This document shows positions 33,367 to 52,735 of a stretch of 64,000 nucleotides of DNA, one piece after another. Position numbers and translations under genes: made by a program. This DNA comes from Gammaproteobacteria bacterium. GTDB taxonomy: Bacteria; Gemmatimonadota; Gemmatimonadetes; Longimicrobiales; Gaopeijiaceae. Each line of letters opens with the position of its first letter. The first letter of the stretch is position 1. The stretch is from assembly GCA_028821195.1 (NCBI GenBank), contig JAPPHB010000090.1:1-64000 (forward strand), in the 5' to 3' direction. A model generated the notes under the pieces. It did no database searches and had not been told where the DNA came from. It saw only the letters and a program-made list of their open reading frames with translations.

Positions 33367-34089
33367 TCAGGGACCGACCGTCTCCAGCACCTGTCGCTGA
33401 GCTTCGTCTTCGCTCACGATCTGCCCGTCGAAGAGGTGGACGGTCCGGTCGGCCAGGTGGGAATAGCGCGGATCGTGCGTCACCATGCAGATCGTGGCGC
33501 CATCGTCATGCAGTTCCTCGAGCAACCTCATCACAGCGCTTCCGTTCCGGGAGTCGAGGTTTCCGGTGGGCTCGTCCGCGAGCAGGATGAGCGGCTTTCC
33601 CACGATGGCGCGCGCGACCGCGACACGTTGCTGCTGGCCGCCCGACAACTGATTGGGGTAGTGCCGGGTGCGATGAGCGAGCCCCACGCGCTCGAGCGAC
33701 TCCTGCACGCGCTCCTTGCGTTCCGCGGCCCCCATCCCGCGATAGGTCAGCGGCAACTCGACGTTCTCGTACACGGTGAGATCACCGATCAGGTTGAACG
33801 CCTGGAAGATGAAGCCGATCGCCCGGTTGCGGACTCGGGCCCGCTGGCTGGCATCCAGGTTCTCGGCCGGGGTGCCGTCGAGCAGGTATCGCCCCGTCGT
33901 GGGGCCGTCCAGCAATCCCAGAATCGACAGCAACGTCGTCTTGCCGCAGCCCGACGGCCCCGCGATCGATACGTATTCGCCACTTTCTATCGACAGATTG
34001 ATGTTCGACAGCGCGTGGGTCTCCACCTCTTCGGCCAGGAAGACCTTGCCCACGCCGTCCAGTCGGATCAGCGCATCATCGGTCATCAT
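33367..34089 (-). CDS. MacB/LolD-type ABC ATPase of the export operon
   Basis: 240 aa. Walker A GPSGCGKTT, Q-loop FIFQAFNLIG, signature [14 protein letters not shown], Walker [14 protein letters not shown] and H-loop MVTHDPRY are present. Start at 34089 with GGAGG about 7 nt upstream; the ATG overlaps the adaptor stop. It presumably serves both permeases of the operon, as it is the only ATPase. Confidence 0.93.
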   Translation of the reverse strand: MMTDDALIRLDGVGKVFLAEEVETHALSNINLSIESGEYVSIAGPSGCGKTTLLSILGLLDGPTTGRYLLDGTPAENLDASQRARVRNRAIGFIFQAFNLIGDLTVYENVELPLTYRGMGAAERKERVQESLERVGLAHRTRHYPNQLSGGQQQRVAVARAIVGKPLILLADEPTGNLDSRNGSAVMRLLEELHDDGATICMVTHDPRYSHLADRTVHLFDGQIVSEDEAQRQVLETVGP

Positions 34090-35366
34090 CGTTCTCCTCC
34101 GCGTCCCCTCAGCCTCACCCGGTTGAACCCGTCCCATTGGGACATGTCCGACAGGATCACGACATCGCCCGGCTGCAGTCCCTCGCGTACCTCGATGTCG
34201 TTGAGCGAACTGGCGCCGAGGCGGACGGTGACGCGCTCCGCGAACCGACCGCCATCGACCAGCTTGAAGAGGCTCGTCTGTTGATTGGCCTGCCCGAAGG
34301 TCGGACGGCCCATGTGGACGACGTCGTCGAGGCGCTCGACGATGACGCTTCCGTCAACGCTGAGATCGGGCCGCGCCGACGGCGGAAGGCTCGGCGGAAG
34401 CGCGACGTCGATCGTCACCGTGCCGCTCCGAACCGCGGGATCGATGCGCACGACCCGCCCCTGAATCGTGTCCGTCCGGGTGTCGATCATCGCGACCTGT
34501 CCGACGGCGATCTCCTGCGCCTGAGTCTGCGGTATGCGGATCTCCGCTTTCAGGCGGCCTGGAGCGACGACTCGCGACAGGGCCTGCCCCGACTGCACCC
34601 ATTGTCCCTCCTGGAGCGGAATGTCGAGCGGCGCCAGCACGCCGCCCACCGACGCGGTCACGTGCATGGACTGGATTCGATCGCGGCTGAACCGAACCAG
34701 GTCGGCGAGGCGCGTGATCTGTTCCTCCTGGGCGCTGATCTGCTCCTCTGTCGTGGCCTGGATCACGGCCAAGCGCTCCGCCTCGGTCTCGAGACGAAGC
34801 GACAGGGCTTCCACGGACTCGCGTGACCGGTCGAGGTCGGCCCGGGCGACGAGTTCCGGGTTCTCGTCGAAGAGCTGCTGGTTGATGCGATAGGCGCGAT
34901 CCGCCTCGAGGTAGTCCGCACGCACCGTTGCCGTGGTGGCGCGCTGTTGAAGCTCCTGCATCCGCAGGCTGGTGCGCAGTTGAACGAGGCTCGCGTCGGC
35001 CGCCGACAACTGCTGCTGGGCTTGCAGCAATTGCATGTCCACATCGGGATTGCTCAAGCGCATGATGAGATCACCGGCCGACACGTCGGCGCCGGGCAGA
35101 GAGAGAATCTGCTCGATGCGTCCGGCGGTGACCGCAGTGATCCAGCGCATCTGCTCCGGTACGAGAGTGCCCGGACCCCGTACCTGCCGAATCAAGGTTC
35201 CGTGCGCCACCGTGTCGCTCCATACGATGGCGGCATCAACGGTCGGGACGCCCGACGGAAGCAGCTGCCATCCGAAGACGGCGATCGCGAAGGCGCCGAT
35301 GGCCGTTGCGCTCCACGCCAGCTTCTTCTTCCGCTTTCGGGGGCCGGTATCGCGAATGATGTCCAA
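34086..35366 (-). CDS. HlyD/MacA-type periplasmic adaptor
   Basis: 426 aa. Short basic N-terminus (RKRKKK), one TM helix (about 17-36), then lipoyl-like halves flanking a long coiled-coil hairpin (about 105-245), and a beta-barrel. It bridges the inner-membrane permease and TolC. TTG start 35366 with AAGGAG 7 nt upstream; 19 bp after the preceding permease gene. Confidence 0.9.
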   Translation of the reverse strand: MDIIRDTGPRKRKKKLAWSATAIGAFAIAVFGWQLLPSGVPTVDAAIVWSDTVAHGTLIRQVRGPGTLVPEQMRWITAVTAGRIEQILSLPGADVSAGDLIMRLSNPDVDMQLLQAQQQLSAADASLVQLRTSLRMQELQQRATTATVRADYLEADRAYRINQQLFDENPELVARADLDRSRESVEALSLRLETEAERLAVIQATTEEQISAQEEQITRLADLVRFSRDRIQSMHVTASVGGVLAPLDIPLQEGQWVQSGQALSRVVAPGRLKAEIRIPQTQAQEIAVGQVAMIDTRTDTIQGRVVRIDPAVRSGTVTIDVALPPSLPPSARPDLSVDGSVIVERLDDVVHMGRPTFGQANQQTSLFKLVDGGRFAERVTVRLGASSLNDIEVREGLQPGDVVILSDMSQWDGFNRVRLRGRGGER

Positions 35367-35385: not shown

Positions 35386-37827
35386 TCATGAGGTCAGGAC
35401 TGTGACCGGATCCACTCCGATCGCTTCTCGTGCGGGAATCCAGCACGCGAAGATGGCCACAGCGAGGATTCCGGCCGCGGCTCCGCCGAGCGTCCTGGCG
35501 TCGGTGCCCGTGACGCCCCAGAGATAGGCTTCGAGCAGACCCGAGAAGGCCATCGCACCCGCGAGTCCAACGCCGATCCCGACGACGACCGGGAGCAGTC
35601 CTCGCACGACGACCAGCCGCAGTACCTTGTCGCCACTCGCGCCTACGGCCATTCGGATTCCGATCTCGCGACGACGACTTCGTACGGTCTGGGCGAGCAC
35701 GGCGTAAACGCCGACCGCCGTCAGGATGAGCGAGAGAGCGCCGAAGAGCGTCACGAGCAGGGTGCCGAATCGTTCCCGGGCCATCGACTCCGCGACCGTC
35801 TCGCTCAGAGCGAAGACGTCGGGGCCGGGAAGCGCGGGATCCACCGTGCGTATCGCCTGCCCGAACGCCCGTTCGAGTCGCTCCAACGGCAGGGTGCTCC
35901 GCACGACGAAAACCGGCATCGCGGCTCGGATGCTGGCGATGTAGTCGCCGGCTTGAGCGTGCGGAAGGTACATGGTGCGCCGGACCTCGGTCCGGAACGA
36001 GACATCCTGCACGTCCGCGGCCACACCGACGATCCGGACTCCGGGCCCTGCCATCGAAGGGAATCGATACTCGTTGTTTATTCGCCCGAGATCGATGCGC
36101 TGTCCGACGGCGTCGGCGCCGGGAAAGTAGTTGCGTGCGAACGTTTCGTTGACGATGGCGACCGGGACTGCGCCCCGACCATCCGCCGGCGTGAACGGTC
36201 GTCCGCGGACCAGCGGGATCGCCAGCGTCTCGAAGTAGCCCCGGGTGACGGTTCGCAGCTCGACCGAACCACCGAATTCATCACGCCCCGCGATTGAAAT
36301 CGGGAAGTTCAGGCCCCGCTCGAAGGGGAGGCTGCTCGCTCCGGCGACGAGATCGATCCCCTCCGAGGTTCGCACACCCTCGATTACGCCCTGCGCGAAC
36401 TGACCGAGCTGCTCGGAAGTGTCGTAGTTCGGCGGTCTGATCGGCAGCTTTACGGCTACGAGTGCTTCGGGATCGAATCCGGCGTCGGCCTGCCTGAGGT
36501 TCGACCAGGTGGTGAAGAGCAGACCGGCGGCCACAAGCAGGATGGTCGAGAGCGCCGTCTGCCCCGACACCAGCGCCTCCTGCAACCGACGCTGCCCGGT
36601 CGTGGTCCGGGAGCCCTGTCTGAGCGCCCGCCACAGTCCCCCTCGCACCGCGGGCCACGCGGCCACCAGGCTCACCACGACGGCAGCCGTCAGCGAGATC
36701 ACGGTCGTGAACGCCACAACCCTCCAGTCCACCGTGATCGAGCCTGCCAGCGGCAGCCGGACGGGTGCCCATGCGACGAGCACATTGGCGCCCCAGACCG
36801 CGAGCGCGACTCCGGCGGCGCCCGCCGCCGCCGCCACCACGATGGCCTCCGCCATGCCAAGCCGCAGGATCCGGCTCTGCGTGGCGCCGAGAGCAGCGCA
36901 CAGCGCCATCTCTCCTCGCCGTCGCAGTGCCCTGACCAGGAACAGGTTGCCGACGTTGGCGCAAGTGATCAGCAGGACGGCCATGACGGCACCCATCAGG
37001 ATCCAGATCGCATTCGCCGTCTGCCCGACGTACAACTCCGCGAAGGAGTCGAGCGTCATTCCGGGTTCAGCTTCGGCGGCCTGCTGCGGGTACGTCATCC
37101 CGAAACCGGCATTGAGCGACGCCACCTCGGTCCGGGCGTCATTCATCGTGTAGTCCTCGCCAAGTCTCGCGATGGCCGGCCAGTTCTCGCCGTGGTCGTC
37201 AGGATCGACGGGTGGTATCTCGGTGGGCAGGACCATCTCGACGGGTTCCGGGACGTAGGGGAACGCGAAGTCCTCGGGAAGCAGCCCGACGATCGCGTAG
37301 GGCTCTTCCTCAAGCCTGATCGAGACGCGGCCGGACACATCCACCGGTTCGCCGAAGTGCTCTCGCCAGAACCCGGGAGACACCACCGCGACCCTGGGCC
37401 CTCCGGGCCGGTATTCATCCGCGGCGAAGGCGCGACCCACCGTCGGCGACATGCCCACTACGCCGAAGAAGCCCGCGGTTACGCGCAGGCCTTGAGCGCC
37501 CGTGATCTCACCGACTTCGCCGACCCGTCCGAAAAACGACTGCCAGCTCGCGAACGTGCCCAGGGAGCGTGTGCGCTCCTGCCAGTACGAGAACCTGGCT
37601 GCCGTCAGGTAGGGAGAAACGTAGGTACCGTAGTTCCACGCCAGGTTCACCACCCGATGGCCGTCCGGAAACGGCACGGGCCGCAACACCACGGCGCTCA
37701 GCACGCTGAAGATCGCGCTCGTGGCGCCGATCCCCAGAGCGAGCACCAATGCGGCCACGACGGTGAACCCGGGGGTCCTCCGAAGGGACCTCAGGGAGTA
37801 GCGGACGTCATCGAGGATTGCAGACAC
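35386..37827 (-). CDS. ADOP-type ABC permease (first of export operon)
   Basis: 813 aa from GTG 37827 (AGAGGA 5 nt upstream, 10 bp after tolC). The N-terminus YSLRSLRRTPGFTVVAALVL with LALGIG is typical of ADOP permeases, then MacB-PCD and FtsX regions occur twice. The frame is open 108 codons further upstream, but that part is the tolC gene read in another frame. It differs clearly from the other permease of the operon (30878), so the pump may be a permease heterodimer. Confidence 0.92.
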   Translation of the reverse strand: MSAILDDVRYSLRSLRRTPGFTVVAALVLALGIGATSAIFSVLSAVVLRPVPFPDGHRVVNLAWNYGTYVSPYLTAARFSYWQERTRSLGTFASWQSFFGRVGEVGEITGAQGLRVTAGFFGVVGMSPTVGRAFAADEYRPGGPRVAVVSPGFWREHFGEPVDVSGRVSIRLEEEPYAIVGLLPEDFAFPYVPEPVEMVLPTEIPPVDPDDHGENWPAIARLGEDYTMNDARTEVASLNAGFGMTYPQQAAEAEPGMTLDSFAELYVGQTANAIWILMGAVMAVLLITCANVGNLFLVRALRRRGEMALCAALGATQSRILRLGMAEAIVVAAAAGAAGVALAVWGANVLVAWAPVRLPLAGSITVDWRVVAFTTVISLTAAVVVSLVAAWPAVRGGLWRALRQGSRTTTGQRRLQEALVSGQTALSTILLVAAGLLFTTWSNLRQADAGFDPEALVAVKLPIRPPNYDTSEQLGQFAQGVIEGVRTSEGIDLVAGASSLPFERGLNFPISIAGRDEFGGSVELRTVTRGYFETLAIPLVRGRPFTPADGRGAVPVAIVNETFARNYFPGADAVGQRIDLGRINNEYRFPSMAGPGVRIVGVAADVQDVSFRTEVRRTMYLPHAQAGDYIASIRAAMPVFVVRSTLPLERLERAFGQAIRTVDPALPGPDVFALSETVAESMARERFGTLLVTLFGALSLILTAVGVYAVLAQTVRSRRREIGIRMAVGASGDKVLRLVVVRGLLPVVVGIGVGLAGAMAFSGLLEAYLWGVTGTDARTLGGAAAGILAVAIFACWIPAREAIGVDPVTVLTS

Positions 37828-37837
37828 GGTCTTCCTC

Positions 37838-39361
37838 TCAGAGCTCGGCGTCGGGCCGCAGACGCCGCCCGACCGCGGCTTCAAGCGACCAGATGGCGGC
37901 ATGAAAGTCGTACACGGCAGCCAGGTGGTCGCGCTCCGACTGCGCCATCGAGTCTTCCGCATCCAGAAGCTCCAGGAACGGGGCCGCCCCGAGCGTATAG
38001 CGCCGGCGCGCGAGCTCGAGCTGCTCGGACGCGACCTCGAGATTGCGCTCCTGGATGCGCAGGGCCCGGTATGCCGTCGCCAGATCGTCGTAGGACTGCG
38101 TAACGGCCGCCCGGAGCCTGAGTTCCTCCGCCCTGCGAGCGTACGTGGCATCTCGCCGGTCCGCCTGGGCCTGGGCGATGTTGCGCTGTCGGGTGAAGCC
38201 CTCGAATACAGGGAGACTCACGCTCAGGCGAAGGCTCAGCGGCTGCCTGGTAAAGTCGAACGGGAACGTCTGGTTCGCCGCCAGGACCTGCTGGCGCATC
38301 TGCTCGGTGAGCACGTACTTCGAGCAGTCTTCCGCCGTGAGCCCCGGCAGGTCCTGCAGGTGGGCGAGAAGGGCGTTGTCGAACTGGCAGCTTCGCTGCT
38401 GGCGGTCGACGCTGCCCCGGGCCTGCTGAACGACGTAGTCCCGGTTGCCGACCTGGCGGGTGAACCCCGACCAGACCGCTGACGCCGAGACGGTCGGAAA
38501 GTAGCTGCTGCGGGCCCGGTTGACCTGCGCCGAAGCCGACGCCTCCGACGCCAGCGCCGCCCGCAGGCCGGGATGTCCCGACATGGCCGTCTCGATCAGC
38601 TCTCTCCGATCCCAGCCTGGTTCGAACACGGCGAAGTCCGAAGCCAGCTCGAGCGGGGCTCCCAGATCCGTGCCGAGTTGCTCCATGAGGCGGGCGATCT
38701 CGGTGCGGTAGAGGTTTTCCGCCCGGAGAAGGGCCACCCGGGCTCGCCCCAGGTCGACCTCGGATTGCTTTCCTTCGGTCGAAAGGGCGGCTCCCGCGTC
38801 AACCCGCGCACTGATCAGCGCAAAGTTCTGCTCCCAGCGGGCCACCTGACGCTCCGCTACTTCGACCGCGTCCCTTGCCCTCAACGCAGCGAGGTACTGC
38901 AGCGTCACGGCGGCCTCCAGGGCAAACTCGTCCGCCGCGCCACTGGCCTCGGCGGCGCGCTGGTTCGCACGCGCGGACCTGGCCTGGAAGAACGTGTTGC
39001 CGTCGATGGACCAGTTGACGGACAGGAAATAGCTGGAGAGCAGGTAGTCGGTGGTGCCCGCCGCGATGTCGGCCGACGAGAAGATGCCGAAGCGCTGCAC
39101 GCCCGCGTACTCGTACTGGGCTCCTCCCCCGGCCGTGACCGAAGGCAGGAACTGACCCCAGGACTCGCGGACCTGCCATGTGGCTCGATCCAGGTCGTTG
39201 GTCGCCGACAGAAAGGCCGGGTTGCCATCCTTCGCGATCCGAATGGCCTCTTCGAGCGAAAGGCTCATGCGTTCCTGGCCCGATGCGCGAGCGGGGGTCG
39301 AGATGGTGCCGACCCCGGCCATCAGGACGAGAACCGCGCCCACTGCGGTGCCTCGAACCAT
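37838..39361 (-). CDS. TolC-family outer-membrane protein of the export operon
   Basis: 507 aa. Signal peptide (VLVLMAGVGTISTPARA), then MSLSLEEAIRIAKDGNPAF and long helical hairpins with beta segments (FLPSVTAGGGAQYEY). ATG 39361 is chosen for its GGAG 9 nt upstream. It is the first gene of the operon, about 50 nt downstream of a sigma-54-like sequence. Confidence 0.9.
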   Translation of the reverse strand: MVRGTAVGAVLVLMAGVGTISTPARASGQERMSLSLEEAIRIAKDGNPAFLSATNDLDRATWQVRESWGQFLPSVTAGGGAQYEYAGVQRFGIFSSADIAAGTTDYLLSSYFLSVNWSIDGNTFFQARSARANQRAAEASGAADEFALEAAVTLQYLAALRARDAVEVAERQVARWEQNFALISARVDAGAALSTEGKQSEVDLGRARVALLRAENLYRTEIARLMEQLGTDLGAPLELASDFAVFEPGWDRRELIETAMSGHPGLRAALASEASASAQVNRARSSYFPTVSASAVWSGFTRQVGNRDYVVQQARGSVDRQQRSCQFDNALLAHLQDLPGLTAEDCSKYVLTEQMRQQVLAANQTFPFDFTRQPLSLRLSVSLPVFEGFTRQRNIAQAQADRRDATYARRAEELRLRAAVTQSYDDLATAYRALRIQERNLEVASEQLELARRRYTLGAAPFLELLDAEDSMAQSERDHLAAVYDFHAAIWSLEAAVGRRLRPDAEL

Positions 39362-39411
39362 TGATTCCCGCTCCACGTCCGGAGTGATCGATGCCTTCGT
39401 GGGGAGAACAT

Positions 39412-39428
39412 TGTAAGAAGCGTGCCAG
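39412..39428 (-). promoter_or_regulatory. Sigma-54-like -24/-12 promoter of the export operon
   Basis: Minus strand reads CTGGCACG-CTTC-TTACA. The -24 block is a perfect YTGGCACG, the spacer is exactly 4, and the -12 block differs from TTGCW only at the G. It points at tolC (ATG about 50 nt away) and lies directly downstream of genes for a sigma-54-type activator and its kinase. Confidence 0.6.
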
Positions 39429-39432
39429 GGCG

Positions 39433-39484
39433 GTGTCTTCGGGCCTATATGATTTCAAGACAACAGGTTATGGAGTGTCTTCGG
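39433..39484. promoter_or_regulatory. Candidate upstream activator half-sites
   Basis: GTGTCTTCGG occurs twice as a direct repeat (39433-39442 and 39475-39484), 42 bp apart, i.e. about four helical turns; an inverted half-site AAGACA lies between (39457-39462). They sit just upstream of the sigma-54-like promoter, though closer than typical enhancer sites. They may bind the neighbouring response regulator; this is inference. Confidence 0.3.
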
Positions 39485-39569
39485 CCCGCGTGGGGAAGTG
39501 CGGTCCGCCCGGTTGTGGGACTCGAACGTGCGATTGTGAACGGTTGACGACGGTGCCCAGGTACCGGTC

Positions 39570-39592
39570 CCGTGGGTGTTGTGACCCGTCGG
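39570..39592 (-). terminator. Hairpin after the histidine kinase gene
   Basis: CCG-T-GGGT / ACCC-GT-CGG with loop GTTGTG forms a 7-bp stem with a bulge, about 27 nt after the kinase stop. There is no T-run. It could partly separate the regulator transcript from the export operon. Confidence 0.28.
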
Positions 39593-39618
39593 AGCGACTA
39601 CGGATGCGGTCTTCTTCT

Positions 39619-40959
39619 TCAGTCGTCCGAATCCATGGGAATCGCGATGCGCGCCCGCGCTCCGCCGCCGTCTCCGCGATTCTCCAGCAACAGAGTTCCG
39701 CCGTGGCTCTCGGCGATCTGCCGTGACAGCACGAGGCCGACCCCGGAGCCCCCGGACTTCGTCGTAAAGAAGGGCACGAAGAGGTTGCCGGTGTCGCCGA
39801 GCCCGGGGCCCTCGTCTTCGACGATGATCTCAACCCTGGCGTCATGAACCTCCCATCCGAGCCGCACCCGGCGGCCCTCGGCTTCGAGGGTGGCATCGGC
39901 CGCGTTCCTCACGAGGTTGATCAGCGCCTGTTGCAGCTGATCCGCGTCCGCGGAACAAGTAGCCTCGGGGCCCGCCACCACCTCCACGGGAACCCGCGTC
40001 TCCAAGTCGGCAACCACCTGTACCAGACTGCCGACCGGGACTGGAGCAAGCTTCGGTGCCGGCAGCCGTGCGAGCCGGGCGTATGACGCCATGAACCGCC
40101 CCAGCGTCTCGGCCCGTGACGAGATCACGCCCAGGCCTCGCTCCACATCGTCCTCGATCTCGGGGGGAAGCCGGATGCGCCGCAGGAGGCTGTTGAGGCT
40201 GCCCGAGATCGACTTGATCGGGGCGAGGGAATTGTTGATCTCGTGGGACAGCACCCGGATGATGCGCTGCCAGGCTTTTCGCTCCTCTTCGTGCAACGCG
40301 CGGCTCAGGTCCGAGAGCGCGATCAGCCTGAGGGGATACCCCTCCTGGCGGACGACACTGCGCCGGAGTTCCCACCGGCCCGACCCGCCGGGAAACGACA
40401 GCTCCACGGTGCGCGGCGTAGTGCCGGTCAACTGGCTGGAGAGACGCAACTCGTCCGCTGTCCTGCCCCTGAGGCGGTCCGCCGGTTGGCCGAGCAGTCT
40501 CTCGCCGGCGCGATTGACGATGCGCAGCACACCTTGCGGGTCGAAGGCCAGCACCACGATGTCGATCTCCTCCAGGACCTTGCGGAGCGTCTCCGTGGCT
40601 TCGACGGCTCCGAGCCTCTGCTCCCTCAGGATCTCCTCGAGCGAGTTGAGCTCCAGGTAGGCCAGCGAGAGAGGGTCCCGGGCATCACCCACCCTGGCCC
40701 TGATCGAGAAGTCCCCCTCACGCAGGGCCGCAAGCATGTTCGCGATCGTCTCGTACGGACGGAGCGCATGATTCTTCGCAGCGGTGCTGAGCCCGAGCCA
40801 AACAACGATCAACGCCAACGACAGCGGCCACCGAATGGCCGGGTCGAACTCGCTCCGCCAGAGCAGCAGGAGTGCGACGACGACGGCGGGCAGGCCCGCC
40901 AACACGGTAAGGAGGAGAACCCGCCTGTCGTGTCGCGTACCCAGCCACCTGAGGCTCAT
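39619..40959 (-). CDS. NtrY-like sensor histidine kinase
   Basis: 446 aa from ATG 40959 (GGAG 5 nt upstream); a TTG at 40998 overlapping the regulator stop is the alternative. Two TM helices (about 15-35 and 45-60) with almost no periplasmic loop, a HAMP-like linker, a PAS domain (VLAFDPQGVLRIVNRAGERL), the H-box VLSHEINNSLAPI with phospho-acceptor His, and HATPase N, G1 and G2 boxes (NLVRNAAD, DEGPGLG, GSGVGL). The input is probably a membrane or cytoplasmic signal. Confidence 0.92.
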   Translation of the reverse strand: MSLRWLGTRHDRRVLLLTVLAGLPAVVVALLLLWRSEFDPAIRWPLSLALIVVWLGLSTAAKNHALRPYETIANMLAALREGDFSIRARVGDARDPLSLAYLELNSLEEILREQRLGAVEATETLRKVLEEIDIVVLAFDPQGVLRIVNRAGERLLGQPADRLRGRTADELRLSSQLTGTTPRTVELSFPGGSGRWELRRSVVRQEGYPLRLIALSDLSRALHEEERKAWQRIIRVLSHEINNSLAPIKSISGSLNSLLRRIRLPPEIEDDVERGLGVISSRAETLGRFMASYARLARLPAPKLAPVPVGSLVQVVADLETRVPVEVVAGPEATCSADADQLQQALINLVRNAADATLEAEGRRVRLGWEVHDARVEIIVEDEGPGLGDTGNLFVPFFTTKSGGSGVGLVLSRQIAESHGGTLLLENRGDGGGARARIAIPMDSDD

Positions 40960-40994
40960 TCCGTCTCCCGGCCTTCCATGCCGCGCGAACGCGA

Positions 40995-42377
40995 TCAACC
41001 AGTCACGGGTTCCCGATCATCGTCCTGGGCCCTGATCCGCTTCAGACGCCGGTAGAGGGAGCTGCGGGTAAGCCCGAGCGCCCGCGCCGCCTTGCTCACA
41101 TTTCCACCGTGGCGATCCAGCGCCTTCCGTACGAGGATGCGCTCGGCCTCCTCCAGCGTAACGTCGTAGAGGGCTGCCGAATCGCCTTCGCGCCCGCGCA
41201 GCCGCAGGTCGGCCGCCTGGATGTGCGAGCCGCGTGCCATGACCACGGCCCGCTCGACCGAGTGCTGCAGCTCGCGCACGTTACCGGGCCAGGCGTGCGC
41301 CGTGAGGGCAGCCTCGGCCCCCCCCGAAAAGCCGACAATGGCTCTTCCGTACCGGGCCGCCTGCCTCCCCAGGAAGTGCCGGGCCAGCAAGGGAATGTCT
41401 TCGGGACGGTCCCGGAGTGGCGGAAGCTCGATCTCGACCGTGTTCAACCGATAGAGCAGATCTTCGCGGAAATCACCTCTCGCCACTGCTTCGCCGATGC
41501 TGGCGTTGGTGGCGGAAATGACCCGCACATCGACGTGCCGCACCTTTGACGAGCCGACGCGCCGGATCTCGCCGCTCTCGAGCACGCGCAGGAACCTGGC
41601 CTGCTGTTGCAACGATACGTTGGCGATCTCATCAAGAAACAGGGTGCCCTTGTGGGCGAGTTCGAAGCACCCGACCCGCTCGGTCCTGGCGTCGGTGAAG
41701 GCACCTTTTACATGTCCGAAGATCTCGCTCTCGAAGATCCCTTCGCCAAACCCTCCCGCGTTCACGGCGACGAGGTCATACCCGGATCGATGCGACACGG
41801 CATGCAGCCGTCTGGCGACGACCTCCTTTCCCGTCCCATGCTCCCCGGTAATCAGCACGTTTGCGTGCGAGGGGCCGACGCGTTTGATGATCTCCAGCAC
41901 CGGCCGCATGGCTGCGGACTCGGCGATGAGTGTCGGTGCGCTCTCCCCCTTGAGCCTGATGTTCTCGGTCTCGAGCCGCTGGGCTCGGCGCAGAGCCCGG
42001 CCGAGGTCCACCTGCGTCCGAATCGTGGCGAGCAGCCGCTCATTGTCCCACGGCTTCTCGACATAGTCCCGCGCTCCCCGGCGCATCGCCTCCACGGCGC
42101 CGCCCACGCTTCCCCACGCGGTCATGGTGACCACGGGCAGGGTTTCGTCCAGTTCGCGCAGGTCGCCGAGCAGGCCCAGTCCCTCCTTTCCGGAGGTGGT
42201 GTCGCGGGTGTAGTTCAGGTCGAGCAGGGCCAGGTCGAAGTCGCCCTTTTCGACCGCGCGCCGGGCCGCACCGGGCGACGTGACGGCCGTGGTCTCAAAA
42301 CCCTCGCCCTTAAGCAGCAGGCGCAGTGCTTCAAGAATGTCGCTCTGGTCGTCCGCGATCAGGATACGCGCCGCCAT
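40995..42377 (-). CDS. NtrC-family sigma-54-dependent response regulator
   Basis: 460 aa. Receiver domain (1-125; DLALLDLNY holds the phospho-Asp, KPW the conserved Lys), AAA+ domain (about 150-390; Walker A GEHGTGKE, Walker B GTLFLDEI), and a Fis-type HTH (GGNVSKAARALGLTRSSLYRRL). The sigma-54-contact loop reads GAFTDA rather than GAFTGA. It should activate sigma-54 RNA polymerase at promoters such as those at 39412 and 42503. It is followed by the kinase gene with overlapping or close start. Confidence 0.93.
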   Translation of the reverse strand: MAARILIADDQSDILEALRLLLKGEGFETTAVTSPGAARRAVEKGDFDLALLDLNYTRDTTSGKEGLGLLGDLRELDETLPVVTMTAWGSVGGAVEAMRRGARDYVEKPWDNERLLATIRTQVDLGRALRRAQRLETENIRLKGESAPTLIAESAAMRPVLEIIKRVGPSHANVLITGEHGTGKEVVARRLHAVSHRSGYDLVAVNAGGFGEGIFESEIFGHVKGAFTDARTERVGCFELAHKGTLFLDEIANVSLQQQARFLRVLESGEIRRVGSSKVRHVDVRVISATNASIGEAVARGDFREDLLYRLNTVEIELPPLRDRPEDIPLLARHFLGRQAARYGRAIVGFSGGAEAALTAHAWPGNVRELQHSVERAVVMARGSHIQAADLRLRGREGDSAALYDVTLEEAERILVRKALDRHGGNVSKAARALGLTRSSLYRRLKRIRAQDDDREPVTG

Positions 42378-42502
42378 GGGTTGCCTGCCTCATTCTCGTG
42401 CACGGTTGAAGCCGCCAGCTTGCTCGACGCCTGAAAGATGATGCTGATGGCCGCTGCCTTCCACCGTCGGCTTGCCCGGCCCCGCTCAATCGTGAACTCA
42501 CG

Positions 42503-42519
42503 AGAAAGCTTCGTGCCAA
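42503..42519 (-). promoter_or_regulatory. Sigma-54-like -24/-12 promoter of the response regulator
   Basis: Minus strand reads TTGGCACG-AAGC-TTTCT. The -24 block is perfect, spacing exactly 4, and the -12 block has one change (G to T). It lies about 126 nt before the regulator ATG, suggesting autoactivation. Confidence 0.5.
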
Positions 42520-42617
42520 TCGACGGCAGGAGGTCGTATCAGATGGTAGCCCAAGAGCTTATGGCCACCGTCAAAGGATGAGCGCCAGGACGGCCATCGA
42601 CCGATAGTGGGACGGGA

Positions 42618-42634
42618 TGTTCCGTTTTCGAACA
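42618..42634. promoter_or_regulatory. Dyad TGTTC-N7-GAACA, possible enhancer
   Basis: A perfect 5-bp inverted repeat about 100 bp upstream of the -24 element of the regulator promoter, at the distance usual for NtrC-type activator sites. Only one copy is seen here and none before the export operon, which weakens the case. Confidence 0.3.
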
Positions 42635-43937: not shown

Positions 43938-43998
43938 GATCGCAAATCTCCTGCCAAATCATAGCGGTGGCGCGCCCGACGACACGTTCGCCCCAGCC

Positions 43999-45254: not shown

Positions 45255-47507
45255 TTACCCGATGATGCGGCGCAGGGCGGCGACCTCGTCGTCCAGCGAG
45301 CGCTCGATTTCGTCGATGCGTCCGTCCGCGTCAAATTCCTCGACCCGACCCTCGGCTTCCTCGATCTTGCCAGCGAGGTCGTATTCCTCGATCTCCATCT
45401 CGATTCCCCGGATCCTACCGTCGAGATCGTATTCCTTGATCTGGATTTCGATCTCCCGGATCTTGCCGTCGAGATCGTATTCCTCGATCTGCTCCTCGAT
45501 CTCTCGCACCCTTTGGGCCAGGTCGTACTCTTGGATGCCCTGCCGCAGGGCTCGCGACTCGGTCTCCATGCGGTCTGCCTGCAGTTCCAATGACTGCATC
45601 GTGGCCCGAAGCGCCCCTTGAATGCCGGCGAACGGCATTCGCGCGATCTCCCGACGCAGGCGATCGACCTCCATGTCGGTATATGCCAACTGGTGGTGCA
45701 GGTCGCTGACGTGCAACTGTTGGGTGCTGATCTGACGCTGCAAGCCACCAACGTGCCTCTGGTGAGTGCCGATCTCACGCTGCAAGCCACCGACGTGCCT
45801 TTGGTGAGTGCCGATCTGACGCTGCAGGCCGCTTACATGCCTTCGGTGGGCCCATCCGGTCTCCCGCAGGCTGCTTGCCTCGGCGAGGACGTCCTGCACA
45901 TCGAGGTATCCGTTCATCACCGTGAGCATCAGGTCGCGCCATTCGCGGGCCCGGTCGTCAAAGACCTCGGAGCGCCCATCGATGCTCCAGTCGTACTCCA
46001 GCCCGCCGGGACCACGGGTAACCACCAGCCGGTGCAGCCTCTCCGCCTGCGACTCGAGCACGAACCAGCTTCCCTCATCCGCGCTGTCGGTGGCCACGTT
46101 CTGCGACCCGATCTCGAAGTTGCCGCGGTTGCGCATGCACATGCGAAGGCCGTCCACTTGGCGCTGGAGGGTCCATTCGCCCCTTCGGCGCACTATGGTC
46201 CACTTTCCCGGATTGCACTGGAACGGCTGGGGGTTAACGGCCTCAGGTGTCGCAAGCGGAGCGGGTGCGGGCTCAACACTTCGCGATTCGACGGGCGGTG
46301 CATTGGTGACGGGCGGTGGGACTTCCATAGGTTCCGACATCGGAGGCGCAGCAGCCAGACGCTCCGTTTCCGCATTCTCCGGGGTCGAGGGCTGGGGGGC
46401 CGGCTCTCTTGGCACTGGATGGCCGCAGGCGAGGAGAGTGCCCACCATACCGATCGCTGCAAGCGCGGACGTGGTGCCAACCGCGGAATACCGCGGGCGA
46501 TGCCGTCTGAGGATGGACAGGATGCGGTCTTCCAGTTGCGAGCGCTGCACCATGCCAAGGGCCATTGCGGCTGGCCGGCCGACGGTCTCCGACGCCAGCG
46601 AGAACAGGTGCCGGGCGTATTCCGAAGGGCGTGTCCCCAGAGCCAGGACCTCCTCGTCGCAGGATCGTTCGCTGGCCACCGCCGACAAGCGGGATGCCAG
46701 CCAGCCAAGAGGATGAAACCAGTAGCAGGCCGCCGCCACGCGGCCCAGGAGATGCCGCAGTGCGTCGTGTCGGCGGACATGTACGAGCTCGTGTGCGAGC
46801 ACAACCTCGCGGCGATCCGGCGCCCAGGTCTCGGCCGAAGACGGGAGTAGAATCACGGGCCGCCACAGGCCCCCGGTCATCGGTGTAGTCGCTCCAGCAC
46901 TCGACAGGATTCGCACGTTCTTTCGCATGCCCAGACGCCGCCGGATCGAGGCGGCCTGCTTCAGCCAGCCGGGTTCGCTCATGGGAACCGCAGCGCGAAC
47001 CAACTTCCGGAACCGGAGGCCGCCGACGACCAGAGATACGAGCGCGGCAGCGCAGCCCACTACCCAGATGAGGAACGCGATGGCGGAGAGGGCCAGCGGG
47101 GAGGGTAGGTCGCTCGCTCCGAACTGGGGCAAGCCGGATTCCACCGGCGAGGAACCGGACGCGGTTGTCGGGCGGGTCGCCTGCCGCAGCGACCCGCCCG
47201 AGATGGGTGCGCCGGGCATTTCGCGCGGCATTCCCGCAGCGGATGCCCGCTCCAAACTCTTCTCAAGGGAAAGCACTCCGGCCTGGGCGTCCCCCGCTGG
47301 CAGAATGGGCACCGGCCACGACGGACCAAGGAGGCTCACTATCGGCAGCGCCAGCAATACGACAAACGTGGTCGTCCAGAGCAGGTGCAGAGTTCGAGCG
47401 GATCCTCGTCGCGCGAGCCAAGCCAGCGCCAGCGCGAGACACATCACCAACGTGGCTTTGAGAACCAGTCCCGCAACACCAGCGGCGGCAACGCCCAGCG
47501 CGCTCAT
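45255..47507 (-). CDS. BlaR1-like M56 membrane metallopeptidase with coiled-coil repeat sensor region
   Basis: 750 aa. BlaR1 topology: TM helices at about 8-30, 38-60, 138-165 and 345-365, with the cytoplasmic zinc protease between TM3 and TM4 (LAHELVHVRRHD, HExxH; SERSCDEE). The extracytoplasmic part (366-750) has no penicillin-binding motifs (no SxxK). Instead there is a Pro/Ala-rich linker, a small domain with two cysteines, then four 14-residue repeats (HVGGLQRQIGTHQR-like) and four 16-residue repeats (REIEEQIEEYDLDGKI-like) predicting coiled coil. It should sense a non-beta-lactam signal and cleave BlaI. ATG overlaps the blaI stop. Confidence 0.85.
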   Translation of the reverse strand: MSALGVAAAGVAGLVLKATLVMCLALALAWLARRGSARTLHLLWTTTFVVLLALPIVSLLGPSWPVPILPAGDAQAGVLSLEKSLERASAAGMPREMPGAPISGGSLRQATRPTTASGSSPVESGLPQFGASDLPSPLALSAIAFLIWVVGCAAALVSLVVGGLRFRKLVRAAVPMSEPGWLKQAASIRRRLGMRKNVRILSSAGATTPMTGGLWRPVILLPSSAETWAPDRREVVLAHELVHVRRHDALRHLLGRVAAACYWFHPLGWLASRLSAVASERSCDEEVLALGTRPSEYARHLFSLASETVGRPAAMALGMVQRSQLEDRILSILRRHRPRYSAVGTTSALAAIGMVGTLLACGHPVPREPAPQPSTPENAETERLAAAPPMSEPMEVPPPVTNAPPVESRSVEPAPAPLATPEAVNPQPFQCNPGKWTIVRRRGEWTLQRQVDGLRMCMRNRGNFEIGSQNVATDSADEGSWFVLESQAERLHRLVVTRGPGGLEYDWSIDGRSEVFDDRAREWRDLMLTVMNGYLDVQDVLAEASSLRETGWAHRRHVSGLQRQIGTHQRHVGGLQREIGTHQRHVGGLQRQISTQQLHVSDLHHQLAYTDMEVDRLRREIARMPFAGIQGALRATMQSLELQADRMETESRALRQGIQEYDLAQRVREIEEQIEEYDLDGKIREIEIQIKEYDLDGRIRGIEMEIEEYDLAGKIEEAEGRVEEFDADGRIDEIERSLDDEVAALRRIIG
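45285..45506 (-). repeat. 48-bp repeats in blaR1, four copies plus a degenerate fifth
   Basis: In-frame units at 45506-45459, 45458-45411, 45410-45363 and 45362-45315 encode 16-residue blocks of the pattern REIExQIxEYDLDGxI; a degenerate fifth (DEIERSLDDE) follows. The heptad-like spacing of Ile/Leu predicts a charged coiled coil. Confidence 0.8.
45672..45839 (-). repeat. 42-bp tandem repeats in blaR1, four copies
   Basis: In-frame units at 45839-45798, 45797-45756, 45755-45714 and 45713-45672 encode HVSGLQRQIGTHQR and variants. The middle two are nearly identical in DNA, implying recent expansion. Confidence 0.85.
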
Positions 47508-48127: not shown

Positions 48128-48646
48128 TCAGCGCGGGTCCGCGAAGCGGTAGTAGAAGGCTGGTAGAGGGACGATGCGTGTACGCGGCGGGCGTTCGTCC
48201 ACCGGGTCGGGGCGGCGCATGGCCAGGGCCCGGTTGAGGTTGAGTTCGAATCCGGCGGCGTGTCGCTCGAGCGCGTGCCAGTCCACCCCGATCGGGGCCC
48301 GCGCGATCAGGGCGAAACCGGCGCGCTGATCGGCGGGGAAGGCAGCGACGCCCCAGAGTCCGGCGCCGGCGAATGCCCGAAGGTCGCCCCCGCCGAGGTA
48401 CTGCTTGCCGGTGACGGCCAGCGACAGGTCCCGTCCCGAGAAGGTCCCGAGCGCGATCTCCACCGCGCGGTTGCTGGATTCGTACTCGAAGACCAGGGAG
48501 ATGAGGGCGGTGCCCCCGAGGGTCAGACCGTACCGGTAGACGGGTGGATCGTCCGCCGGGTCGACCGGGGACTGTGCATGCAGCAAGCCGCCGGGAGCGA
48601 GCCCCGCACAACCGGCCAGCAACAGAACCGCGAGGGTTCGGATCAC
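48128..48646 (-). CDS. Secreted hypothetical protein, last gene of the TonB receptor operon
   Basis: 172 aa with a signal peptide (TLAVLLLAGCAGLAPGG; the LAGC could also be a lipobox). The remainder alternates like a small beta-structure (YGLTLGGTALISLVFEY, DLRAFAGAGLWGVAAF). Not recognised. GTG start overlaps the TonB receptor stop (GTGA), so it is co-translated and may assist that receptor or its substrate. Confidence 0.65.
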   Translation of the reverse strand: MIRTLAVLLLAGCAGLAPGGLLHAQSPVDPADDPPVYRYGLTLGGTALISLVFEYESSNRAVEIALGTFSGRDLSLAVTGKQYLGGGDLRAFAGAGLWGVAAFPADQRAGFALIARAPIGVDWHALERHAAGFELNLNRALAMRRPDPVDERPPRTRIVPLPAFYYRFADPR

Positions 48647-50796
48647 GGCAGCCCTGCGCGCAGGCCGACGTAGAAGCTCCGGCCCGGACCGGGCTCGTTG
48701 TAGCGCCTCCCGAAGGCGTTCACCACCACCGACGCCGTGTAGAGCGTGTCGAAGATGTTGGTTACGCCCGCCACCGGGGCCACGTCGAGCGCGCCGACGG
48801 GCACCGGATCCAGCTCGAAGCGCATGTCCAGAAGCTGGTAGGGATCCGTCTCGGCGGTGTTGACGTCGTTGACGGGAATGGCCGACACCCGGGTCAGGCG
48901 CAGTTCCGCGAACCAGCCCGGCTGGTCCAGCGAGGCAATGGCTTCGGCCCGGTGGGGGGCGAGCCCCGGGATCTGGTTGCCGCCGTAGTCGTTCCCGCGC
49001 GCCACGTAGTCGTCGAAGACCGCGTCCGTGTAGCTGTAGGTCGCGCGCAGGGAGGCACCACCGCCCGCCGCGAGGGTGAAGGCGGCCTCGAAGCCCTGGT
49101 GGCTCGCCGACCCGGCGTTCGCGTAGAAGGTGCGGTCGATGTCGGGCACCTCGATCGGGACCAGCGCGTCGGCGATGCTGGTGGTGAAGACGCTGAACTC
49201 GTAGGCGAACCGGTTCCCGGAGACGCCTCGCGCCCCGGCTTCCAGGCTCAGGCTGCGCTGCGGGTTCAGCTCCGGGTTGAAGCCGCCGCGTCCGCTGGGG
49301 TCGTTGGCCAGTTCGGTGGTGGTGGGGCTCTCGAAGGAGGTGCCGACGGTCGCGAACAGGCCCACGGACGGGCCGGCCGCGACATGCAGCCCGATCGACG
49401 GGCTGACGGCGTCCATCAGGCGGTCGCCCGAGTCGTCGCCGTTGGAGAGGAACGAGTCGTCCACGGAGAAGTTCAGCCGGTCGTAGCGCACCCCGCCCAC
49501 CAGCCGGGCGCGCTCGCCCATCCGCAGGTCGCCCTGGCCGAAGAACGCGAGGGTGCGCACGTTCTCCAACTGGTCGAGCCTCAGGTCCGACCGCTCGCCG
49601 CCGTCATTGCCGTGGTTCTGGCGATCGTCGCGCTGCAGGGCGTACTCCCCGCCGAAGTTCCAGGAGAACTGCTCGGATTCCCCCGCTTGTCCCCGCAGCG
49701 CGCCGCGCACTCCGGCTGCGTTGCGCTTGAGGTCGATGACGGCGGGGGGAATGGGGTTGTCCAGGTTGCGGAAGAGACCCCACGCCGCGAGGTCCGCCTC
49801 CCCGGCGGCGGCAGTGCCGGTCCAGCGCACCCCGAGCTGTCCCTGGGTGACCTGCTTGTTGGTGCCCTGGAAGATGTTGCCCCGGTGCGCCCGGCGGTCG
49901 CCCACGGCGAGCAGCGAATCGTTGATGGAGCCGGGATTGTCGCCGTCCAGATTGGCCAGATTCGCGGTCACGATCAGCTCGCCATCCGCCAGCGGCGAGC
50001 GCAGTTGCCCGTTCAGATGCAGCTTGCGCGCCTCTCCGAAAACGGAACCGTCGTCCGCCACCGGGTTTGTGCGGAAGCCCTCGTATTTGAAGCGCGAGGC
50101 GCTCAGCAGGTACTCCGTTTCACCGCTCACGCCGCTGGTGGTCGCCTGCAGCCGCGTCATGCCGTTGCTGCCGCTGACAAGTGAGAGTTCCGGGCGGAAC
50201 GGCTGGTCGGCCGCCCGCCGGGTTTCGAAGCGCAGCACCCCGCCCGCGCCGTTGCCGTAGGCGGACGAGCCCGGGCCGCGCAGCGCCTCCACCCGTCCCA
50301 GGGTGCCCAGGTCGAGGTGGTCGAGGGTCGACTGCCCGTCGGGCAGGGTTGCGGGGATGCCGTCCACCAACACAGTCACCCCGCGTACGCCGAACTGCGA
50401 GCGGGCGCCGAAACCGCGTATGGAGATGCGCTCGCCCACCGCCGAATTGTAGCGGTTCTGCACCTGGACGCCGGGCAGGCCCTGGAGCGCCTCCTCGATG
50501 GAGAGCCCGGCCTTCCCGCGCGTGAGCGCCGATTCACCCAGCACCGAGACCGCGAAGGGGACTTCTCCCAGCAGGATGGGCGTGCGCAGCACCGTCACCT
50601 CGATCTCGTCGAGCGGAATCACCGCGGACGAATCAGGCTCCTGGCCCGCCAGTGGGGCGGAGAGGTTCGCCACGGCCAGCGCCAGGGCGAAGCCTGCGAG
50701 GACCACTTGACGAACCCGGGACCGCCGCGCGGAGGAGCCGGAAACGGCCAGGGGCCCCGGCCGGACAGGGTCGTGATGCAGAGGATGAGTCATCAT
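48643..50796 (-). CDS. TonB-dependent outer-membrane receptor
   Basis: 717 aa. Long N-terminus with a signal sequence (VVLAGFALALAVANL), TonB-box region (IEVTVLRTPILLGEVPF), plug domain (about 65-180; GLPGVQVQNRYN, RISIRGFGARSQFGVRG, VEALRGPGSSAYGNGAGGV) and a 22-strand-type barrel ending in RSFYVGLRAGLP. The plug resembles FecA/PupA-like receptors, so a siderophore or iron complex is likely, but the substrate cannot be fixed. The preceding gene of the operon is 37 bp upstream. Confidence 0.93.
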   Translation of the reverse strand: MMTHPLHHDPVRPGPLAVSGSSARRSRVRQVVLAGFALALAVANLSAPLAGQEPDSSAVIPLDEIEVTVLRTPILLGEVPFAVSVLGESALTRGKAGLSIEEALQGLPGVQVQNRYNSAVGERISIRGFGARSQFGVRGVTVLVDGIPATLPDGQSTLDHLDLGTLGRVEALRGPGSSAYGNGAGGVLRFETRRAADQPFRPELSLVSGSNGMTRLQATTSGVSGETEYLLSASRFKYEGFRTNPVADDGSVFGEARKLHLNGQLRSPLADGELIVTANLANLDGDNPGSINDSLLAVGDRRAHRGNIFQGTNKQVTQGQLGVRWTGTAAAGEADLAAWGLFRNLDNPIPPAVIDLKRNAAGVRGALRGQAGESEQFSWNFGGEYALQRDDRQNHGNDGGERSDLRLDQLENVRTLAFFGQGDLRMGERARLVGGVRYDRLNFSVDDSFLSNGDDSGDRLMDAVSPSIGLHVAAGPSVGLFATVGTSFESPTTTELANDPSGRGGFNPELNPQRSLSLEAGARGVSGNRFAYEFSVFTTSIADALVPIEVPDIDRTFYANAGSASHQGFEAAFTLAAGGGASLRATYSYTDAVFDDYVARGNDYGGNQIPGLAPHRAEAIASLDQPGWFAELRLTRVSAIPVNDVNTAETDPYQLLDMRFELDPVPVGALDVAPVAGVTNIFDTLYTASVVVNAFGRRYNEPGPGRSFYVGLRAGLP

Positions 50797-50833
50797 CGGG
50801 TTCCGGTTTGGAAAGGGAAGCTGGGAGCTCCTG

Positions 50834-52627
50834 TCAGTTCCTGATGTACACGGTCATGAACTCGGGCCGGCCGGCCTCCTCCAGGACGAGGGTCTCGGGC
50901 TCGGCCGCGCGGTCCGCCACTGCCGTTTCGACCACCACGCTCGGTCCCACGGGCACCCGGCAGAAGAGGAAGCGCCCGTCCGCGCCGGTGATCGTCTCGT
51001 ACTGGCCGTCCCGCTGCTCGAGCCGCACAAGACCGGCGTTGGGGTCGCCCCCGCCGCGCGGATTGCTTCCCCGCGCGATGGTGCCGATATCCCAGCCGGT
51101 CCAGGTGGCGGTGACGAGGGCGTCCTCCACGGGGACTCCCGAGACGCCGTCCACCACCCGGCCGGCCAGCACGGCGGTGCGGTCCACGGCCTCCACCTCG
51201 GCGCAGGCATCGCGGAGCACCTCGCCCCGGGAGGGGGTCAGCAGCCGCAGCGGCGTGATCTCACCACGGCGCACTTCCACCTCCTCGGGCTCGGGCGCGA
51301 AGCCCACTTCTTCGAGCAGCGGGTGGTGGTAGGAGATGCGATACACTCCTTCTGTCAGGCCGGTCAGCCGGTAGTTGCCGTCCTCCCCGGTCACTGCCGA
51401 GTGATCGGTGCCTTCCGCGAACACGCGCGCACCTCCCAGCGGGCGAGTATGCAGCGAATCCAGCACCGTCCCTTCGATGGTCCCGGTCTCCGCCTCGACC
51501 AGGGTCTCTCCCAGCGGGGTCATGATTCGCATCACCACGGCGCCGGTCTCGCGGATCCCGGCCAGGAAGCGCTCCGGGATGTTGGTGAAGGGATTGGGCC
51601 GCATCCCGGGGCGGGGCATGCGGATATACCACTCGCGCACCACCCAGGTCCCGTTGGGGAGCCCCGCGAACATGACCTTGCCCCCCAGGTGGCGCGAACG
51701 GAGTTCGGCGTCCAGATCCGCGTAGTTGTACTCCAGCCACTGGAGCTCCGAGGACTCGGGCTCAAGCCACATGACGCCCCGGATGTCGATGTGCCCACGA
51801 CGTCCCTCCACCGGCTCGAAGGCGAGCCCGATGAGGCCTTCGGTCTCGTCGTCACCCTCGCGCACGCGCAGGCAGTGGGTGTCGAGGAAGTCGTCCGAGA
51901 GCATCACGTTGGCGTCGGGGGCGTAGTAGTAGGTGCCGTCCTCCTCCTCCTGCACGAAGCCGTCCGCCATGAGTTCCTCGACGGGCCGCGAAACGAAGGT
52001 CTGGCGCTGCATGAGGTCGCTGAAGTTGCGCTGCTCGTTCATCACCGTGCGCGCGTCGGGGTCGAGGTCCCGCTCGTACCTCATGGTGACGTAGCGATAG
52101 ACGGATGTCTCGTCGGTGAAGGCTGCCGCCGCGAGCGCCTTGCGCGCCTCTTCCCACACCCGGGCCACGTCGAGTCCACCCTCAGGACGCAGTACGCAGC
52201 GGCGCTCGCCCTCCACGGTGATGTTGTCCAGCGCGATCGCCTGCACCGGCACCACCATGTCGTGGAAGGCGGCGGCGCCGGGAGCCAGCTCGAGCGGCGG
52301 GGAGGTAATGCTGGCGTAGCCGATTCGGTCGGCGCGGAGCGTATAGGCGCCGGTTCGCGGAGCGCGCAGCGTGAACCTGCCCAGGTCGTCGGTGAGGATG
52401 CGTCCCACCTGGGTTCCTTCGGCGTCGACGAGCACGATCATCGCGCCGGGCAAGGGGGTGCCGGCGCCCTCCTCCAGCACCCGCCCGCGCACGATCTGCG
52501 CGGTGGCGGCTGAGGCGGTGGCGGCGCAGGCGACAGCCAGCCAGGCGGCCAAAACCAACCACGAACCGACCCGGCCCGCAGTGCGGGGAGTCGATGCCGT
52601 GCCGCGGTGCATTGCGTCTGTCGTCAT
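50834..52627 (-). CDS. Secreted protein with carboxypeptidase-regulatory-like domains
   Basis: 597 aa from ATG 52627 (GGAGG 9 nt upstream). Signal peptide, then a carboxypeptidase-regulatory-like/DUF4480-type beta domain (about 42-125; IVRGRVLEEGAGTPLPGAMI), a ~220-residue middle region (RYVTMRYERDLDP, WLEPESSELQWLEY), and two further Ig-like regulatory domains (GTIEGTVLDSLHTRPLGGAR; AVLAGRVVDGVSGVPVEDA). It is upstream of the TonB receptor in one operon. It probably binds or presents a substrate at the cell surface; no enzyme motif is seen. Confidence 0.75.
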   Translation of the reverse strand: MTTDAMHRGTASTPRTAGRVGSWLVLAAWLAVACAATASAATAQIVRGRVLEEGAGTPLPGAMIVLVDAEGTQVGRILTDDLGRFTLRAPRTGAYTLRADRIGYASITSPPLELAPGAAAFHDMVVPVQAIALDNITVEGERRCVLRPEGGLDVARVWEEARKALAAAAFTDETSVYRYVTMRYERDLDPDARTVMNEQRNFSDLMQRQTFVSRPVEELMADGFVQEEEDGTYYYAPDANVMLSDDFLDTHCLRVREGDDETEGLIGLAFEPVEGRRGHIDIRGVMWLEPESSELQWLEYNYADLDAELRSRHLGGKVMFAGLPNGTWVVREWYIRMPRPGMRPNPFTNIPERFLAGIRETGAVVMRIMTPLGETLVEAETGTIEGTVLDSLHTRPLGGARVFAEGTDHSAVTGEDGNYRLTGLTEGVYRISYHHPLLEEVGFAPEPEEVEVRRGEITPLRLLTPSRGEVLRDACAEVEAVDRTAVLAGRVVDGVSGVPVEDALVTATWTGWDIGTIARGSNPRGGGDPNAGLVRLEQRDGQYETITGADGRFLFCRVPVGPSVVVETAVADRAAEPETLVLEEAGRPEFMTVYIRN

Positions 52628-52735
52628 CCTGAGCATCCTCCTGACTGGACTGCACGGCATAGTTACCGCGATCCCGGCCCTCTTCCTATATTGAGTGAAA
52701 TCACCGGTTGTTTCGTTGAGCGCAGGAGGTCCGGG

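Follow-up and report, generated by a model that had tools for sequence, protein, structure and literature searches.

The genes considered here lie in a 64,000-nucleotide (nt) stretch of contig JAPPHB010000090.1 (assembly GCA_028821195.1, Gemmatimonadota; hereafter the window), in which a regulator-kinase pair adjoins a five-gene export operon, the whole very probably forming a compact two-component module that acts through sigma-54, controls its own expression and is dedicated to an exporter of the ADOP/MacB type. All module genes are on the minus strand, and domain calls come from profile searches with Pfam and NCBIfam cut-offs. The NtrC-type response regulator (460 residues; 40995..42377) comprises a REC domain, an AAA+ domain with the loop GAFTDA and a Fis-type helix-turn-helix (HTH), with PF00072, PF00158 (Sigma54_activat) and PF02954 (HTH_8) all exceeding their Pfam cut-offs. 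Its gene overlaps by 4 nt that of a histidine kinase (39619..40998) with two hydrophobic segments and a short loop, a PAS domain, an H-box and a HATPase domain. The kinase matches HATPase_c and PAS_4, HisKA was not matched at the threshold used, and the H-box, HEINNSLAP, was identified by reading the sequence.

Downstream of this pair are five tightly spaced genes. They encode a TolC-type outer-membrane channel (OEP; 37838..39376, likely start ATG 39361), a first ADOP permease with MacB_PCD and FtsX domains (35386..37827, likely start GTG 37827), an HlyD/MacA-type periplasmic adaptor (34086..35366), a MacB/LolD-type ABC ATPase (33367..34137, with an alternative start at residue 17, coordinate 34089) and a second ADOP-like MacB_PCD/FtsX permease (P0007; 30878..33364). 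The first permease (P0004) scores 721.9 bits against TIGR03434, above the curated cut-off of 622.3, and the second falls under it at 546.5 bits. With adaptor, MacB-fold permease, ATPase and outer-membrane channel, the MacAB-TolC-type part list is complete, and content and spacing predict an operon. The profile searches thereby put domains to the activator, kinase and five-gene export operon of an original prediction made from the sequence alone.

The genome also has rpoN, whose absence the original prediction had named beforehand as refuting it: a single intact gene encodes the protein, including the RpoN box ARRTVAKYR. Of 147 genomes searched, this one among them, 138 have rpoN. GAFTDA is kept in 62 of 63 aligned regulators, the remaining one being cut at that point, and passages of PMC4641369 place it among the loop variants that retain activity. 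In the 56 of 68 kinase sequences with two hydrophobic peaks, the segments are 24–39 residues apart centre to centre, most often 31, and this short distance indicates a kinase with almost no periplasmic part.

Candidate promoters and a putative paired-dyad enhancer

Two candidate sigma-54 promoters lie in intergenic DNA of the module in the right orientation (minus strand), with the TGGCACG -24 blocks, 4-nt spacers and one-mismatch -12 blocks that the original prediction had described. Site A, TGGCACGCTTCTTAC (TGGCACG-CTTC-TTAC; 39413..39427), heads the five-gene pump operon with its near edge 52 nt from the likely OEP start codon and an expected transcription start at about 39401. Site B, TGGCACGAAGCTTTC (TGGCACG-AAGC-TTTC; 42504..42518), heads the regulator-kinase pair with its near edge 127 nt from the activator ATG at 42377 and an expected transcription start at about 42492. 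A single base, the -13 G, separates each site from TGGCACG-N4-TTGC; this position was not stressed in the original prediction. The -24 GG and the -12 C are present at the correct spacing. Passages of PMC3844500 give glnH of Salmonella (TGGCATGATTTTTTC) as a precedent for a TTTC -12 block, so that such blocks need not disqualify a predicted promoter.

Counting bare -24/-12 matches proved uninformative as a test in the window, in the organism's own genome and in 58 genomes of the family. The window holds four matches with at most one mismatch, and 20 first-order Markov windows hold 0–6 (mean 1.6). Across the whole genome TGGCAYR-N4-TTNC occurs 17 times and the reversed pattern 16 times, and, summed over the family genomes, TTGC sites number 30 against 36 in controls and TTYC sites 49 against 40. 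Such raw matches, no commoner than in random windows or with reversed patterns, would suit an explanation in which they reflect chance or general intergenic conservation and the genes use sigma-70-type promoters. Site matches alone are thus weak evidence, unremarkable by chance, and the weight comes from conservation and from an enhancer described below. Since the counts are uninformative, the absence of the -13 G is not assignable to this regulon as opposed to the sigma-54 of the lineage; no clear sigma-54 promoter for comparison emerged from the remaining relaxed matches in the genome or from the DNA flanking the genes for its other activators.

Two further matches in the window were set aside. 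TGGCAGG-AGAT-TTGC (43942-43956), before a beta-propeller gene, was rejected as a sigma-54 promoter: it ends 5 nt before the first ATG of that open reading frame, the DNA upstream is mostly a neighbouring reading frame, and the enhancer scans of the window gave no match there. A one-mismatch match at 41225-41239 falls inside the regulator gene.

Reading upstream of 16 promoters of this kind revealed a repeated element at near-constant distance, which could be aligned in 14 of them and which the original prediction did not contain. This putative enhancer, or upstream activating sequence (UAS), consists of two GTYC-N7-GRAC dyads with centres 20 bp apart, ~80–120 bp upstream of the -24 block. Enhancer B (42599..42634, minus strand) is a zero-mismatch match to the pattern, with GTTC-N7-GAAC at 42633-42619 and GTCC-N7-GGTC at 42613-42599. 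Enhancer A (39507..39542, minus strand) retains a second dyad, GTCC-N7-GGGC at 39521-39507, beside a decayed first one. A position weight matrix (PWM) trained on genus sequences other than the window scores B highest in the window (38.5 bits), followed by A (31.1 bits), the next match scoring 15.8 bits, and a PWM from other genera likewise places B first. Because an enhancer stands at the same distance before A and B, both promoters appear tied to one activator, which supports the coupled autoregulated system that the original prediction had proposed.

The element is recovered in loci that did not define it. The genus PWM without the window has its best match, in either orientation, on the known element in all seven other-genera loci (9.6 bits in L203, 16.8–20.9 bits in the other six). 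A 39-nt PWM made from 14 elements (L225 and L226 were dropped for a different spacing or arrangement of the element) finds the enhancer in loci outside its training set, including L140, L210, L213, L219 and L222, and these five carry -24/-12 sites with at most two mismatches 100–116 nt downstream of it. The genus has 13 zero-mismatch enhancer matches, all of them located at this module and spread over 10 of the 11 genomes (the one without is 67% complete), and the regulon therefore looks self-contained.

A recurrent sequence before pump genes, TGGGACG...TTCCC (family f3), was considered as a set of odd -24/-12 sites and rejected: in L219 and L222 the enhancer scan assigns it to the enhancer itself, and a -24/-12 site follows 100 nt downstream; in L214 and L223 the scan did not call it. 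The f3 enhancer is a near-perfect palindrome of 34–36 bp, GTYCGGTnnTGGGA...TCCCAnnACCGGAC (L213 252-290, L210 12701-12739, L222 10850-10888).

The dyads are palindromic, as many repressor sites are, and could in principle be a repressor operator rather than an enhancer. The neighbour classification in relatives covered module genes only, and a repressor gene travelling with the locus may escape it. The position of the dyads, however, some way upstream and almost constant in distance, is that of enhancers; at many sigma-54 promoters the UAS is placed ~70–150 bp upstream in passages of PMC3844500. We consider a repressor operator exceedingly improbable.

Conservation at pump-operon heads

Both candidate promoters are kept within the genus, as the original prediction called for. 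Site A shows the same 15 bases in eight of eight aligned sequences and in L133, and L128 and L130 carry TGGCATGCTTCTTTC at its position. Six genus loci (L124, L125, L126, L127, L129, L131) agree exactly with the window at site B; L132 is cut. Conservation within the genus extends to the DNA around the sites, and the comparison was therefore taken on to other genera.

Three metagenome-assembled genomes (MAGs) titled Gammaproteobacteria (L044, L045, L046) encode a kinase 95–97% identical to that of this genus, and L054 one that is 83% identical. These four titles look wrong; other members of the genus are titled Gemmatimonadetes.

A search with the kinase recovered orthologues across Gemmatimonadota, and also in Acidobacteriota and one Chthoniobacterales MAG. 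Among 67 relatives from these groups, 54 have at least one pump gene (OEP, HlyD, ABC or ADOP) in the stretch analysed next to the kinase. Outside the genus, the regulator-kinase pair often continues directly from the pump operon, and a promoter is therefore expected at the pump-operon head. A coding-strand site with at most 1.5 weighted mismatches stands at 13 of 21 testable heads among 41 loci (4 in the genus, 9 outside it), against 3 of 402 other gene starts and none of the 21 heads on the other strand. This difference between heads and other starts (Fisher p ~6e-17; 1e-15 without one of two near-identical loci) comes from a test that was not blind, the sites having been listed beforehand.

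In many of the relatives L200-L235 the gene immediately preceding the regulator encodes a diverged ATPase (~45% identical); a closer one is often present as well, and ADOP genes lie in the vicinity.

Enhancer and promoter were also searched for together. Two composite patterns, drawn from sites already seen, gave 15 and 35 matches, 50 in all, in 154 genomes of the order, many of them genomes new to the analysis, and the reversed patterns gave none. The patterns differ by one base in a gap, and the 15-match pattern is a real sub-type. Genes of the module, whether OEP, HlyD, ATPase, ADOP, regulator or kinase, follow 39 of the 48 matches whose downstream DNA was examined (G070:C121 and G013:C42 were left out), and these 39 span 11 genera, all of one family. 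From enhancer start to -12 C the distance is 125–132 nt in all 36 matches measured. The patterns left the -13 base free; 36 matches with a module gene have C there in 17 cases, T in 16, A in 2 and G in 1. G occurs in 1 of their 24 distinct -24/-12 sequences, and in 2 of 39 matches once three more are counted.

Coding-strand sites at pump-operon heads in other genera, their near-fixed distance to a shared enhancer and a composite control of zero argue against chance or general intergenic conservation, an explanation that we regard as very improbable for all that the raw counts would allow it. A different concern is that the promoters depend on sigma-54 but that another activator binds the enhancer, in which case the system would not be autoregulated. 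The genome does encode further sigma-54 activators, with five more matches that cover the AAA+ domain, one of them with an internal stop. Against this, most composite matches fall where this regulator or this type of pump is encoded, and the HTH of the regulator is well conserved across 63 aligned rows. We regard control by another activator of the genome as highly improbable.

A number of observations weigh against the reading of a dedicated, autoregulated module. In the window itself, neither promoter has the -13 G, and enhancer A is decayed and was missed by the other-genera PWM, lying outside its best six matches. Genus-level identity of the sites could in large part be plain intergenic conservation. 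Site A is missing behind the kinase in one genus locus, L134, and in L128, L130, L133 and L134 the regulator comes after the pump genes and the site precedes HlyD instead (L229-L232). Further afield, the available stretch lacks a pump gene in 13 of the 67 relatives, several of which are on short contigs. The head count left out 17 of the 41 loci, which have no OEP or HlyD upstream, as well as L201, L224 and L235 with less than 250 nt upstream, and eight of the 21 heads have no site at the threshold (L211, L213, L215, L216, L217, L222, L223, L228), L213 and L222 among them carrying the enhancer and a two-mismatch site. L217 and L220 have an enhancer-like element with no convincing -24/-12 site behind it. 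The enhancer did not exceed the threshold in the Acidobacteriota or Chthoniobacterales loci, and the switch is therefore supported within Gemmatimonadota only. At up to three mismatches the 11 genus genomes together give 42 enhancer matches against 29 for the reversed pattern, so only close matches are telling. The derivation of the composite patterns from known sites belongs here too, as do the nine of 48 matches that precede no module gene, three of which have less than 215 nt of downstream sequence, and the counted match of L303, which precedes a kinase fragment only.

Two composite-like arrangements lie before other genes. On the strand opposite the pump in L231 (~13577-13709, locus coordinates), the divergently oriented gene of P0010, a Sel1-repeat protein, has its own enhancer and a TGGCATGCTTCTTAC site, and is a possible third target of the regulator. 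In L301 an enhancer-like element and TGGCATGGACCTTTC precede a gene for a 419-residue protein with no similarity to pump or regulator proteins; this may be an extra target or chance. Upstream of the module in the window are a BlaR1-type M56 peptidase gene (45255-47507) and, beyond it, genes for a TonB-dependent receptor and a carboxypeptidase-regulatory-like protein (48643-52753).

A predicted exporter switch and its relation to known systems

Gene order, domains, both candidate promoters, an enhancer at matching distance, rpoN and cross-genus conservation are features seen in the DNA. From them we infer phosphotransfer, DNA binding, activation and a working exporter, along steps that are established knowledge for the NtrC family (phosphorylation, dimer binding, formation of an AAA+ ring and looping). 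The membrane histidine kinase would phosphorylate the NtrC-type regulator, whose dimers would occupy the two dyads and assemble an AAA+ ring. The ring would then loop to RNA polymerase-sigma-54 at sites A and B and open both promoters. Transcription from site B would extend through the regulator-kinase operon and give positive feedback on the regulator, and transcription from site A would induce the adjoining five-gene ADOP/MacB-type tripartite exporter. The input to the kinase probably lies in the membrane, at its PAS domain or in the pump itself; because the kinase has almost no periplasmic part, our guess is that the trigger may be a toxic compound carried in the membrane or the activity of the pump.

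A bolder proposal is that the locus exemplifies a lineage-specific class of sigma-54 promoters, TGGCAYG-N3-CTTYC without the -13 G, that works with a paired-dyad enhancer at near-fixed distance and a GAFTDA activator as a very tight switch for a flux-sensing exporter read by a kinase with no periplasmic sensor. We think this unlikely, and hold to the plainer proposal of a dedicated, autoregulated module.

Several known systems share parts of this arrangement. ZraSR- and AtoSC-type systems also pair a membrane kinase with a REC-AAA-HTH regulator acting on neighbouring genes, and ZraSR is autoregulated. Here, by contrast, the target is a tripartite ABC exporter and the enhancer is different, and the NCBIfam models listed as best for the regulator, which include TIGR02915, AtoC and ZraR, all miss their curated cut-offs. 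MacA-MacB-TolC has the same part list of adaptor, MacB-fold permease, ATPase and TolC-type channel, whereas this locus has duplicated ADOP-type permeases and a separate ATPase gene. In BceRS-BceAB detoxification modules, a kinase with a very short extracytoplasmic loop is encoded beside a MacB-fold ABC transporter. The present locus resembles them in this pairing, as far as sequence can tell, but has an NtrC-type sigma-54 output where BceRS has an OmpR-type regulator.

The closest precedent is a 2025 PLoS One survey, passages of which predict sigma-54 promoters before FtsX-like (COG0577) permeases of ABC-type antimicrobial-peptide exporters in Gammaproteobacteria, Opitutia and Bacteroidia, called first evidence by its authors, and also before many NtrC-family regulator genes (COG2204) (PMC12316311). 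The terms acidobacteri and gemmatimonad are absent from its text, and, unlike what is seen at this locus, its passages on the permeases give no dedicated activator, enhancer motif or autoregulation. A survey that includes Gemmatimonas gave, in the parts covered, no match for efflux or ABC transport (PMC3162934), and passages of PMC11573002 report RAST counts of ADOP genes. Among the matches listed in our literature searches, titles and abstract starts held no paper on this enhancer, on a Gemmatimonadota sigma-54 regulon or on an ADOP pump under a dedicated sigma-54 system. The original prediction had taken such a system to be undescribed, which holds for this phylum and architecture and has to be given up for sigma-54 control of FtsX-like permeases as such, predicted elsewhere in that 2025 survey. 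Sigma-54 control of FtsX-like permeases is partly known; the novelty lies in the phylum, in the enhancer code and in promoters of which few have the -13 G.

For Gemmatimonadota, the analysis provides a concrete regulon prediction, with enhancer sequence, spacing, promoters, regulator and targets. It places an exporter of the ADOP type, a poorly understood permease family, under a defined predicted signal pathway, and it poses a question for sigma-54 itself, namely how it functions at promoters without the -13 G.

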